NCBI RefSeq assembly: GCF_022201045.2
Contig: NC_068561.1
Location: forward strand, 19,346,501 to 19,410,500
From: Citrus sinensis
Taxonomy: Eukaryota > Streptophyta > Magnoliopsida > Sapindales > Rutaceae
Reading direction: 5' to 3'
DNA: 64,000 bases
Shown here: positions 51,966 to 63,320 of the stretch, one piece after another
How positions within the stretch are numbered: position 1 is the stretch's first letter
How the letters are laid out: each line of letters opens with the position of its first letter
Position numbers and translations under genes: made by a program
The notes under the pieces: generated by a model
What the model was told of the DNA's origin: nothing
Database searches by the model: none
What the model saw: the letters and a program-made list of their open reading frames with translations, nothing else

Positions 51966-52833
51966 AATTATAGTACAAAAAAAGAATTGTTATATTAAGT
52001 ATACACATACAATTTAAAAAAAAAAAAAGAACTGCTATGTTAAGTATACACGTTCTTTCTTCCCTACCATTCAATTTAGTAAAACAAAAATGACTCAGGA
52101 CAATATTGTCATTTTAAAATATTGAGGGCTTTTTTTATTTATATATAATAAAATAATTTTCACTTTGCATAAATATGACAACATTTTCTTAATATAATGT
52201 ATATGATATTTTGGTGGTATTTTATCTAAAATACCCCTCTCATCAAGAATAATCTCTCTCTTTACAAAAGTTTATGAATCTCTTTACTTAATTTCACATA
52301 AAATTCAATACTTTTCAATAGACATATCCCAAAGTAGTTTAAAAATCACATTCATGTTTAACAAGCTGCATTTTTCTTCCACATTTATCATAAGATTGGT
52401 TTTCTAAGTTTAAGTTTTTGTTTTGTTTTGTTTAATTAGTGTTGAATTTGTAAGTTTTGGGTAAATAGCCGTATCGGTGCAAATTCCTCATGAACTAATT
52501 GCCAGAAGTTCATGGATCTATTTGTCACTTTTGCAAACCATATGAACGAATTGGATAAATGCCAAGAAACTTCGTATAACTGAGTTTACTCGCTTCGTTT
52601 ACTTCAGACTCAAGTGTACAAGTCGAAGTCGTCTTCGTCGCCTTCTTCCATTTCGCCTTTCCTTTCTTCTTCTGAAGGAGAGCTTTGATTTCATCGTCTT
52701 TCCGTTTCTTTTCATTTTTTTTCTGTATTTACTGTTTACTTTTTCTTTTTTTAAAAAAAGAAAAAATTCATAAATTTTTATTTGTTATTATTGATATTAT
52801 TATATTTTCGATTCCAATTTCTTCAAAAAAGCA

Positions 52834-55800
52834 ATGGAGAAAACCAAATCATTCAAGTACCACACACAAGAATCCAATTTAGGATTGAGTATAACCGATC
52901 GCAGATTAGCGTACGTGCGGCAGGCTTCGTACAACCAGTCACAGCTACAAGAGCCGCCACACACGCCAATCTCAATATTCCCAGACGAATCAGCAAAGCC
53001 CTTTCTTTCTCGTTCAATTTCAAACATAGATACAATTTCTCACCACGACAAGTACTTCGATAAATTCTCAATTTTTCGCGCCTTAAGGTCCGGGAATCGG
53101 CAGATGAAGCGATTGTTTCTGTTGATTTCGCTTAATGTTGCTTATTCTACAGCTGAATTGGCTATTGGACTCTTCACCGGCCGCGTTGGTATGAATTTAG
53201 AATTTTTTTCTTTTTTCTTTTTTTTTAAATTTATCTATATTTTTACTAATTTTTGCTTTATGCGGTTTAGGTTTGGTGTCTGATGCATTTCATTTGACGT
53301 TCGGCTGTGGATTGTTGACGTTTTCGATGTTTGCCATGGCTGCTTCGAGACAAAAGCCTGATTTTGCTTATACTTACGGGTAATGGTTATACAAGTTGTT
53401 AGTTCACATTTTGTTAAAATTCCCATTAGAAACATAGAATTGCTGATAGACAAATATTTGCTCAGCTCTGTGCCTCTGTCTACATGGAGTTGTATAAAGA
53501 GTTGCATAGTCAATGCGTTAGAGCTTTCATGGTTTGAATTTTAATAATATACGGAAGTCACTTGACAATATATGTGTTTCACTCTTGCTGAAACTTTTGC
53601 ATATGAATGTAAATGATTAGCTTGTAACTATTGTGCTTATTTTCAATACTTAGGTACAAAAGGCTTGAAGTTTTGTCCGCTTTTACCAATGCTGTAAGTA
53701 TATTACATTTCTTTCATTTTTAATGTTCTTATATATTGTTTTCTGTACAACCTGCTAGCATTAAACTGTAGTTGGCATGATTTTCCTTTCGGTTTCTCTC
53801 TTAAGTAACAAGTATAACGTAATGAACTTGAGAAAATTTTGAAGGATGAGACAATGATTGTTTAAAAATTACAATTTGTGTTTGAAAGCACCTGTATTCC
53901 ACTGTAAGCTCTTTCATTATGAATGAATTTTAATACTAGAATTATCAGCTCTTAAAAATTGACAAAACTTGGTTCTTCATTTGAAGATAATTTTCACGAA
54001 CGTTGATCCCAACGAAAGCAATAATTGCCATATATGCTAAAACTCTCGTGAACCTAAAAGAATTGATCAAAATTTGGTGTGAGTGGGATTTGATTCTGAT
54101 ACTTCTTTTTTTCCAGTCCCTCTTTATTTTGCATATCCAAAGGTTTTCCATATGTCACATGTTCTTTTTCTTATTTTTCTTTTCTGTGAAATTTTTGGAC
54201 TGGCCTCCATTTTGATGTTTTGTCAGTTTGCTACTTGTTTAGACAGCTGTTTCTTTTGTTCATGTCATTCTCCTTGGCTGTCGAAGCACTTCATGCATTC
54301 ATACAAGACGAATCTGAGCACAAGTAAGTTTCTTGGTTCAATCTTAGCTTTTTTAGCGATGCTATAACAAACTTGGTAAATCTAGAGAAGTGGATGCATT
54401 GATCTTTATGAAGTCTGTTGACTCTTGTATTTCTATTTCGCTTTTTTAGGATTTCTTTTGGTTTATTGAATTTCTTTCAGTAGTGGCTGATCAATCTGAT
54501 TGCTTGCAGGCATTATTTGATTGTTTCAGCAGTAACAAACTTATTGGTAAATCTTATAGGGGTTTGGTTCTTCAGGAATTATGCTCGCATTAATCTTTGT
54601 AAGTGTGGTGGCACTGTTATATATGCTTAAGTGATCATCTTGATTTGTGTTAGATGGGACTGCTACAAGTTTTTTTAAATTCATCTAATGACCTGACTGA
54701 TTTTTTGATATCTTGATTTGAGTTTTTCAGTTTCTGTATGATGTATTAATGACGTGATGAGTTACCCAGCATGGTTTTGATAAACCGTGCGGTCAGACAG
54801 TTGAAAAAGCAAACTATAAACTATTTAATTGTTCTATATCCCAATCAGTCTAATTAGGAGATTCTTTGGGGTATTCCCAATAGGGATAGAGACTCTAAAA
54901 GTCAAGAGTAGTTTCTAGATAAGAAGTGGGGGTAAACATAGAACACAAAGTCTTAAGTAAATTAACCTCCTTAAAACTTCACATAAATAGGGAACCCATG
55001 TTTATGCCTTCCACTCAGGGTTTAATGAAGAATTCAAGGCTTTGATAAAATGAAGAATTTGGATGGGTTCTTCTATGCGGATAACCAGCACCAGGCAGTG
55101 AAGAACTCTCTGGAAGAGCTTCTTCATCTGGCATTGGTGCTTAGTTTGTAAATTATTAAAGAGTCTTGAATATAAGGGCATTGTCATTGGGAGATTGTAG
55201 CTGCTTCTTGCCAGAAGATTAGAGCTCTCAAGCGGGAAGGATGAACGAAGAAATCTCAGAGTTAGTATCCTTCTCGAGAATCTTTCGGGGTTCGTACTTG
55301 GACTGGTGGACGCGTTCAGCAGACTCTTTAAATTCACCATGCCAACAGACCCACATTTTTATTGACCGGGATCTCTGTTTTATATATTGAATAGCAGCTT
55401 TGATTATGGCATATAGGGAACATTATTTTCTCTAGGTTGAGGACTGAGTCAATGACACAGTCTTTGTTCCTTAACTCTTCTGATTATTCATCTGATATGC
55501 ATATTTTGTCACAGTTTACCGGAGCCCAGAAGACATGAATTACCACTCAGTTTGCTTGCATGTTCTTGCAGATTCTATTCGCAGGTGTAATACTCTCTCT
55601 CTCTCTTTCTCTTTCTCTTGCTCTTGCTCTTTCTCAAGCTTCATTTCAGATTATTCTCCACATCGATCTTAAGCTGGATTACAATTATTATTTGCAGTGC
55701 AGGTTTGATATTGGCATCTTGGTTTTTGTCCCTTGGGTAAGTCTCTGTTCATTTTGTTTTTAAATTTAAAGTGGGCGGTGGGTAAGCACCATCTCACAAG

Positions 55801-56488
55801 TGTTGTTCATGTATGGACAGAGAGATATTTTCTCCTTGCAGGGTTGATTGCAGGCTTCAATTTAATTATTGGATTCTGATTTCCTTTCCCTGCAGGGTCC
55901 AGAATGCTGAAGTTTTGTGTTTGGGGATAGTTTCAGTTGCAGTCTTCATGCTTGTCATGCCACTTTTCAAAGTGACTGGTGGTATCTTGCTTCAGATGGC
56001 ACCTCCTAGCATTCCGTCTTCAGCATTGAGTAAATGTTGGAGACAGGTGATTCTTTTCTTTCCTTTTTTATTTGAAAGTATAAGTTTCCATCAGACTATT
56101 TCTTTCTTGTTTAGTTCGTAGTATCTTATTTGAAATTCTACTTTGGACAGATTGTTTCTCGGGAAGATGTTACAGAAGTTTCCCAAGCCCGTTTTTGGGA
56201 GCTAGTGCCTGGCCATGTTGTTGGTTCTCTCTCACTTCAGGTATGCTGCCAAAATTTTGTTTTATGTGTATTCAAGACGATGCAGCAAGTTATTAGCCAT
56301 TTGGGTATCTAAAATATCTTTAACTTTGGCCATATGTCATGAAAATTTGTAATTTAGTGATTTCCCTTGGTGGATGATGCAAACAGGTTAATAAGGGAGT
56401 GGATGACCGCCCAATACTTCAATTTGTGCATGGTTTATACCACGATTTAGGAGTACAAGATTTGACAGTGCAAATTGATTATGATTGA
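52834..56488 (+). CDS. MTP5: Cation diffusion facilitator, MTP5 (MTPC2) type
   Basis: CDF proteins export zinc from the cytosol; Arabidopsis MTP5 works with MTP12 as a Golgi heteromer. Ten exons join in frame: 52834-53188, 53271-53379, 53654-53693, 54247-54323, 54510-54598, 55515-55584, 55698-55736, 55896-56046, 56151-56240, 56387-56488, giving 373 residues. The first 85 residues are polar and cytosolic. Six membrane segments run from about 90 to 300. The membrane helix V motif is intact, HVLAD at 239-243. The helix II motif reads H126-L-T-F-G130, so the usual Asp is Gly. YGYKRLEVLSAFTNALFLLF and PPSIPSSALSKC are strong family marks, and the tail VQDLTVQIDYD closes the cytosolic domain. In Arabidopsis MTP5 (At3g12100) is beside ACT11 and FAD2, also in this window. 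The ATG is supported by the copied start region upstream. Confidence 0.93.
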
Positions 56489-57562: not shown

Positions 57563-58237
57563 TATATTATTTATATTAAATTCTTATTAATTGAAAAACT
57601 TTAAAGTCAATTTTCTAATTACTATATTTAAAGGTTATTGTAGTAAAAAATAGGTATTAGTATCCCTTTTTGAAAACTTGGTGGTCTTGATGACCATTTC
57701 GCCATATTTTGGGGGTTTACGTGTCATTTTCCCTAAGAAAATAAAGCAAGTGACAAGTTAGACAAATATATATATTTCAATATATTATAAGATAAAATAT
57801 ATTGTATTAAAGTGTATACTATCTTTTAACGTATCTCCTTACTCTAAAAATAAGGGATAAATTATTATAAAATTACTTATTTGAACAAATTCTAATTCTT
57901 CTATGAAAGGTTGGAGTTGAATTCCCGTATTCTGATCTCATGACTTGCAGATATACTAAATTTTACAACTTGATTTTTGGAAGTTATTGACCTCTACATG
58001 GTATAATGCTTATACAAACTCTTACGCACATTTTCCTCGCACAAACTAATGTTGACTAGTAATCGATGGACCTTGTTATGAGTTATGACAAGTATCACCT
58101 CCGCCTCTATAATTTTGTTTGATCGCTTGCTTTTCCTCGGAACTTCCAACGAAACTTGGACTCATACAGACATCCACTTTTGTTGACTTTGCCTACATGT
58201 TCGTTAATTAGTTACTTCACTTTAGAGTTTACTAAAA

Positions 58238-59463
58238 GGGTAATTTTTAAAAACTTCCCCTGAGGTTTGGGCTTGTTGCAAATAGATGACGAGAATTGAT
58301 TTATTGGGTAATTTTTAAAAACCTCCCCTGAGGTTTGGGCTTGTTGCAAGTAGATGACGAGAATTGATTTATTTATAAAAAACCCCCTACCGTCAGTTAA
58401 GTTTAACATTGACCGTTAGTTGACCGTGCAAAGACAATATTACCCTTAACAATAGTTTGTAAACAAAAATAACTAAAAAAAAACCAAAATTATTGGTGCA
58501 AAAAGCACAAACCCTATTTTTTGACAATTTTATCCTTGTCAATTCTAAAAATTTACAATATCATAGGTAAAGATTATGACTATTTCATTTTTAAATTTTT
58601 AATTTTATCTTTCTTGTAGGAATTTTAAGGAAATATCAATAATTTAAAGAGAATTTTTTAATTTTTTATAAGAACTTTAAGAAAATATTAATAATTTAAA
58701 AAGTGTAAAATAGCTAATAATTTTGGTTTTTTTTTTAGTTATTTTCGTTTATAAACTATTGTTAAGGGTAATATTGTCTTTGCACGGTCAACTAACGGTC
58801 AATGTTAAACTTAACTGACGGTAGGGGGTTTTTTACAAATAAATCAATTCTCGCCATCTACTTGCAACAAGCCCAAACCTCAGGGGAGGTTTTTAAAAAT
58901 TACCCTTGATTTATTTGTAAAAAATCCCCTACCGTCAGTTAAGTTTAACATTGACCGTTAGTTGACCGTGCAAAGACAATATTACCCTTAACAATAGTTT
59001 ATAAACGAAAATAACTAAAAAAAAACCAAAATTATTAGCTATTTTACACTTTTTAAATTATTGATATTTTCTTAAAGTTCCTATAAAAAAGTTAAAATTA
59101 AAAAAATTAAAAAATCCTCTTTAAATTATTGATATTTCCTTAAAATTCCTACAAGAAAGATAAAATTAAAAATTTAAAAATGAAATAGTCATAATCTTTA
59201 CCTATGATATTGTAAATTTTTAGAATTGACAAGGATAAAATTGTCAAAAAATAGGGTTTGTGCTTTTTGCACCAATAATTTTGGTTTTTTTTTTAGTTAT
59301 TTTCATTTACAAACTATTGTTAAGGGTAATATTATCTTTGCATGGTCAACTAACGGTCAATGTTAAACTTAACTGACGGTAGGAGGTTTTTTACAAATAA
59401 ATCAATTCTCGCCATCTACTTGCAACAAGCCCAAACCTCAGGGGAGGTTTTTAAAAATTACCC
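58238..59463. mobile_element. Palindromic Mutator-like MITE composite, 1226 bp
   Basis: The whole block is flanked by an identical 10-bp direct repeat, TTTACTAAAA, at 58228-58237 and 59464-59473, and ends in GGGTAATTTTTAAAAAC and its complement. Inside are two head-to-head copies of one element: unit A at 58306-58905 (600 bp) with long terminal inverted repeats of about 190 bp, and unit B at 58906-59463, which is the near-exact inverted complement of A but lacks its outermost 60 or so bases. An extra copy of that outer end (68 bp, 58238-58305) precedes unit A. Target duplications of 9-11 bp and long inverted repeats point to Mutator-like elements. It has no coding frame. A transcript through it would fold into a hairpin with arms of more than 550 bp. 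Confidence 0.88.
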
Positions 59464-59522
59464 TTTACTAAAAACGAAAGGGAAGAAAAGATAAATCTAC
59501 TGAAAATGAACCAAATTTCATT

Positions 59523-62649: not shown

Positions 62650-63320
62650 CTTCATTTTTCAGGATTTCTTATACTTGACGCTTAAAGAATAGCTTTAGAT
62701 TGAAGTTCATCATTACCTTCAGCTGTTATTGTCTACAATAAATCAATTTCTTCTGTAATTAAACATCATTCTCAGCAATACACATACTGTAAGTAATTCA
62801 TTCTTCTTTGCTGAAAAAATGTCAGTTGGCAACGTTCTCAGCATCTTTTTCTGTTATTTGGCTGCTGCCTTATGCCCATTATTACTTCGTTAATTGCCAA
62901 CAACTTTGCGGCTTTAATAGTTTAGTACAATATTTCTGAGTCTGATTGATGTGTCATGTCACAATAAGCAAAACAACAATCGCACATAGATATTGGCAAG
63001 TTAAATTTTATACGATGAACTCACGAAAAATTGACATTTCCAAAAGAGAATCCAAGTTTGGACAACATTTCTGAAAAGGTAATCCAAAATCTGACAACGG
63101 AAATACTATTGTTGAATAATATACAGTTGCTATATACAACACGCTAATAACACACCAGGAAATACCAAAAACAAGCTTCCTTAGAATGTAAAAGTCATTG
63201 CAATTGTCACACACTTTCTGTCTATCGCCCTGTGAGATCTGAAAATGGATCAAGTTGGCTTCCTGTATGAGTGTAATCCGACTCAACGAAAGATGGAGGC
63301 ATGGCCGGCCACACGAAAGA
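62650..63320. repeat. Duplicated 3'-end block, copy 2 (next to the lectin kinase)
   Basis: This is the partner of 56500-57243, about 6.1 kb away in direct orientation. It includes a fossil of the MTP5 3' untranslated region (62660-62710), the kinase 3' flank and the last coding bases of the kinase. The copies differ by many substitutions and indels. Confidence 0.8.

Follow-up and report, generated by a model that had tools for sequence, protein, structure and literature searches.

The window analysed here is a 64,000-nucleotide stretch of the Citrus sinensis genome. Positions 58238-59463 of this window form a long palindrome, which raises the question of how two facing copies of one element came to stand at a single site. 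By sequence reading and inverted-repeat self-comparison, this inverted-repeat block is composed of two oppositely oriented copies of one short element with the ends GGGTAATTTTTAAAAAC...GTTTTTAAAAATTACCC. Its inverted arms include one of 193 nucleotides at 99% and one of 184 nucleotides at 97%, so that the palindrome, its boundaries, and its arms are as the original prediction placed them. The preferred reading, with a probability of roughly 0.96, is a nested self-insertion, in which one Mutator-like MITE lies inside the terminal repeat of a copy of the same family.

Structure of the inverted-repeat block

Two different target duplications are present at the locus. The outer duplication, TTTACTAAAA, belongs to the host element (B) and is found at 58228-58237 and, with the same letters, at 59464-59473. 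The inner duplication, TTGATTTATT, was made by the insertion of the second element (A) and is found at 58296-58305 and, again with identical letters, at 58906-58915. The block had been described as bracketed as a whole by one duplication. The outer duplication is indeed exact, but a second perfect 10-bp repeat brackets A alone. At the local base composition, two specified 10-bp sites would agree exactly by chance with a probability of about 7e-6.

Element A (58306-58905, plus strand) is a Mutator-like MITE of 600 bp with 184-bp terminal inverted repeats that are 97% complementary. An imperfect internal direct repeat (49 nucleotides, 80%) is located within it at 58603-58703.

Element B (minus strand) is divided into two parts. 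The left part (58238-58305), the outermost 68 bp of a terminal repeat, includes the left copy of TTGATTTATT. Positions 58235-58305 are 96% complementary to 59396-59466, which is the other end of B. The remaining 548 bp (58916-59463) are matched over nearly their full length, at 96-98%, by 40 other copies among the best candidates scored. When A and one copy of TTGATTTATT are left out, 58238-58305 and 58916-59463 join to give an element of 616 bp, within the range of 599-616 bp of the family copies measured. Because this omission yields a full-length B, the 68-bp segment is B's own end. That segment had been taken for an extra outer end preceding the first unit; the end exists, but it is the outer part of B cut off by A. 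The limits proposed for unit A hold, while those proposed for unit B (58906-59463) are replaced by the two parts given above.

The guest is thus flanked by duplicated host sequence, and the host is contiguous, at 616 bp, without it. The inner duplication TTGATTTATT corresponds to positions 59-68 of the family terminal repeat, counted from the outer edge. The empty site of the inner insertion, represented by 50 bp of the flanks joined across A, is present with five or fewer mismatches on 76 of the 80 strands of 40 family loci (L013-L052). The remaining four strands have 6 mismatches (two strands), 9 (one), and 12 (one). For the outer insertion, the 300-bp left flank gave no second full-length match and only a 50-bp piece at 90%. 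Nothing found contradicts the nesting reading.

The locus would have formed in two steps. The 616-bp non-autonomous Mutator-like MITE B would have inserted on the minus strand at TTTACTAAAA. Later, the same-family element A would have inserted on the plus strand at TTGATTTATT in the terminal repeat of B, duplicating 10 bp. This order is what the nesting itself dictates. Both insertions were presumably cut-and-paste events that relied on a MULE transposase provided in trans. The inverted repeat of 1.2 kb would result because A landed opposite to B. Of the suggestion that the structure was formed at the site, what remains correct is that a second insertion took place there independently.

The MITE family in the genome

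The genome searched is 299.7 Mb in 11 contigs. A genome-wide pattern search with the outer 31 bp of the element, allowing up to three mismatches, found 514 forward and 519 reverse ends, for a total of 1033, which corresponds to roughly 500 family copies. The reversed control gave none, as did the reversed-pattern controls of all end, junction, and spacing pattern searches. No further family sequence was found within the window besides the block.

Target duplications were counted in 40 loci (L013-L052) and one additional locus (L095). Of the 40, 39 came from the best matches to A and one (L052) from the junction search. These loci provided 42 elements with both ends readable, with two elements each from L019 and L095 and none from L047. 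In L047 the outer terminal repeat is broken by a run of G near position 980, and the end was not recognised. An exact 10-bp duplication flanks 33 of the 42 elements, and an exact 9-bp duplication flanks five. The other four have no exact duplication of 8-12 bp; each shows a single mismatch over 10 or 11 bp. Seven copies left out of this count (L085-L091) comprise five with exact 10-bp duplications and two with 9-bp duplications, judged by eye. A+T makes up 84% of the 33 exact 10-bp duplications.

Two family loci on one contig, L032 (C3:33341862) and L049 (C3:33407652), lie about 66 kb apart and have the same target duplication, GTCAATTATA. This suggests a segmental duplication after insertion, with one insertion probably copied.

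The family can be sorted into two length forms, of about 600 and about 615 bp, which arise through interior gaps between copies. Divergence from the majority sequence has a median of 1.1% in 43 rows, which were picked for likeness to A.

The structure of the family is that of a Mutator-like MITE, as had been predicted. Target duplications are of the expected 9-11 bp, being exactly 10 bp for both window elements, and the terminal inverted repeats are long, as described for A. The elements are short (600 and 616 bp, below 800 bp) and have many copies (1033 ends). They are also non-coding, with no stop-to-stop frame of at least 80 amino acids overlapping 58238-59463. In the search for an autonomous, transposase-encoding partner, the family terminal repeat was absent, at E 0.01, from all 30 loci examined with a PF10551 match (3285 bp each; a scope of about 1.5 kb), and no transposase source for the family was found among them. 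These 30 were drawn from the 150 matches listed of 899 candidates.

If 516-900 copies, each of 600 bp, were placed uniformly over the 299.7 Mb, between 0.27 and 0.81 self-nested insertions would be expected by chance. A palindrome of this kind needs no special mechanism, and the opposite orientation of guest and host is an even bet.

Close pairs of family members are also found outside the window. A genome-wide search for exact back-to-back ends gave two places in the range of 6-66 bp, both with a separation of 24 bp, and none in the range of 68-128 bp. The two places are L019 (C2:20012109-20013361) and L095 (C9:19371448-19372701). Each is a tandem pair in the same orientation with the identical 24-bp spacing. 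Every element of these pairs has its own target duplication of 9 or 10 bp, and the spacer between the two duplications is about 4-5 bp and includes ACC. The L095 pair is about 89% identical to A and is an older-looking relative. If the 1033 ends were placed uniformly, about 0.05 such pairs would be expected, with P of about 0.001 for two or more, in a test that was chosen after the first pair had been seen and with a pattern that needs exact 16-mers.

The scan of the flanks of the 40 loci reached about 1 kb in both directions, except for one flank of L052, where it covered 0.45 kb. Another family sequence is nearby in two of the 40 loci, at 24 bp in L019 and at 11 bp in L041, and nothing was found further out within the scanned flanks. 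In L041 (1001-1769; C6:17144251-17145019), 11 bp separate the end of the copy from the beginning of a diverged relative, whose first 143 bp show about 78-80% identity. In very small numbers, the close pairs hint that the family may insert into its own ends or right next to them.

Relationship between the two copies

A was aligned with the reverse complement of B. The two are identical in 585 of 599 ungapped columns (97.7%) and differ by 14 substitutions and 18 gap columns. The gap columns are composed of one 16-bp internal gap and two 1-bp gaps.

A comparison of 43 rows was made with A, B, and 41 other copies; the set was chosen for resemblance to A and carries that bias. The copies closest to A in this sample are L013 and L014, at 99.2% identity. 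B ranks 38 of 42 from the side of A, a rank that carries the bias of the A-like choice, and A ranks 13 of 42 from the side of B on ungapped identity. The 16-bp gap of A is common to four of the 41 other copies.

Because the 43-row set had been chosen with A as the query, a further search was run with the 548 bp of B. In this search 40 other copies scored above A among the best candidates scored, and A was the last of 42 near-full-length same-strand rows. Much of this low score is due to the gap of A, given its ungapped rank of 13.

In the tree, A and B fall in different groups. Neither group has starred support, no fork separating A from B reaches that level, and the bootstrap had not settled. 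Relative to the majority sequence, B has 12 substitutions and A has five. In this biased sample, the difference agrees with B being the older host.

An origin by local inverted duplication of one element, through a fold-back or a replication template switch as for Mu killer-type derivatives, is the least probable of the alternatives. The opposite orientation, the adjacency, and the 97.7% identity of the arms are what such an event would leave. The substitutions and gaps that separate A from B speak against it, and an inner 10-bp duplication at the exact element ends is not expected from it. It was rejected on the closer relatives that A and B each have elsewhere. Judged by their sequence relationships, the two are independent copies and not one duplicated element.

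An assembly artefact, in which the assembler had duplicated or inverted one of the arms, would suit the known difficulty of assembling long inverted repeats. It is very improbable, however, for arms that are not identical, that have closer relatives elsewhere, and that are joined by exact target duplications.

The original prediction also allowed that the composite had moved as a unit, that is, that a dimer of 1226 bp transposed in a single event and made only the outer duplication. Both edges of the block do have the family ends and a perfect 10-bp duplication, and the composite could in principle move henceforth. Against this origin, a perfect 10-bp duplication of host sequence flanks A within B. 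In addition, 90-base queries across the left and right junctions were matched in full only at the window locus, among the best 40 of 794 and 878 candidates. A search for further copies of the same dimer thus returned the window locus only, among the scored matches. Transposition as a composite was rejected on A's own duplication and the absence of the junctions elsewhere among these matches, and it is highly improbable.

The spacing of ends gave a similar picture. Exact same-facing (start-start) end pairs 27-87 bp apart occur once in the genome, at the window locus, where 0.11 are expected (P 0.10). There are none 89-149 bp apart. These scans cover the two spacing ranges named and need exact 16-mers, so that diverged copies are missed. 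Repeated self-nesting at a hot spot was considered and rejected on these counts, one pair in the shorter range and none in the longer, both with exact 16-mers.

A 24-base pattern of the left junction, with two mismatches allowed, has 27 matches, of which only the one in the window is exact. The other 26 are read, from their sequence, as AT-rich flanks resembling the inner duplication. L052 (C9:13685318), which has one mismatch to the junction pattern, is without other family sequence in its flanks. Since the junctions and the end spacing are single-copy as far as searched, there is no sign of the block moving as a unit.

Hairpin potential and related systems

The potential for a long hairpin RNA, which had also been predicted, is borne out by folding computation. 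The block folded as RNA has a predicted energy of -820 kcal/mol, compared with -208 to -227 kcal/mol for five mononucleotide shuffles. The single elements have predicted values of -341 (A) and -308 kcal/mol (B), and A alone is predicted to fold far beyond chance (z -34.7 in a test on A).

Neighbouring genes bear on whether the block might be transcribed. A minus-strand frame at 63225-63998 matches the Pfam protein kinase. Its reading frame stops at 63222, some 3.8 kb from the block, towards which its 3' side is turned. On the plus strand, open frames in the window at 52795-56118 presumably resemble exons of a metal-tolerance/cation-efflux protein, and the frames at 52795-53280 and 55786-56118 have no Pfam match at 0.001. 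If this gene is real, the block lies about 2 kb downstream of it, in the direction of its transcription.

Such a transcript bears on the proposal that the block is a natural hairpin trigger, producing 21-24 nt small RNAs that silence the family and resembling Muk in effect though not in origin. A transcript across the block would fold at the energy given above, well beyond the shuffles and the single elements, and the possible upstream exons point towards the block. A review describes 24-nt siRNAs in Arabidopsis from inverted repeats near genes, many of which derive from MuDR-type MITEs (PMC12595863). On the other side, the block has no frame of at least 80 amino acids, so that a hairpin RNA could target only the terminal repeats and interior. 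The single elements A and B are also already strong hairpins, and a special role of this locus is therefore not evident. The proposal is considered improbable, and any small-RNA role of the block would be incidental. Similarly doubtful is a wider version, in which self-insertion, in place of internal duplication, would create a dominant hairpin locus with small RNAs damping the whole young MITE family, as with Muk; a related idea is a transposase that may favour the inside or vicinity of its own ends, which would produce loci of this type again and again.

Muk itself is described as a MuDR element duplicated in part and in inverted orientation; it carries mudrA sequence, and a hairpin RNA was proposed for it. 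According to the same source, silencing by Muk is linked with short antisense transcripts and not with the proposed read-through hairpin, although a hairpin may contribute (PMC3440606). The likeness of the present locus to Muk, as described there, is one of inverted Mutator-type sequence and of hairpin shape alone. It differs in being the product of two separate insertions with no coding frame found. The inverted duplication of transposase coding sequence that characterises Muk is absent, with no frame of at least 80 amino acids in the block.

The nested self-insertion preferred here can instead be compared with other nested elements. Jiang and Wessler (2001, Plant Cell 13:2553) reportedly drew on nested elements for MITE insertion preference, mainly with Tourist- and Stowaway-type MITEs. 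The present case differs in being Mutator-like and in having host and guest from the same family.

MULEs are also reported as hosts of nested insertions in maize and rice, where 36% and 41%, respectively, of the candidate coding-MULEs carry one (PMC3903597). The hosts described there are coding, and the guests are RNA and DNA elements generally, whereas both elements here are non-coding and belong to one family. The MuTAnT elements of Medicago truncatula are, like the present family, short non-autonomous MITE-like MULEs, and twenty copies are reported with nested insertions or rearrangements (PMC4486113). Compared by description, MuTAnT differs in having mostly TA microsatellite targets and 9-nt duplications.

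In Citrus, 82 Mutator MITE families (DTM1-n) are reported. One of these, DTM63, for which the search was based on duplications of 9-10 bp, is regarded as recently active (PMC6466647). Its average length of about 150 bp, by description, is well below the approximately 615 bp of the present family. SaTar arrays, the occurrence of which in citrus is reported, are clusters of short non-autonomous MULEs, and 11 of 15 guayule families have members with 10-bp duplications (PMC5907723). By description, the arrays are without nesting throughout and target microsatellites. The window locus is nested, while the tandem pairs at L019 and L095 look more like SaTar.

The locus is thus ordinary, an instance of the already known kind of nested MULE/MITE insertion. 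Only if small-RNA data made it the main source of the RNAs that silence the family would it gain greater importance. Its present value is as a clear illustration of two ordinary insertions building a long palindrome, and as a caution: where a palindrome shows one outer duplication, another may lie concealed inside.
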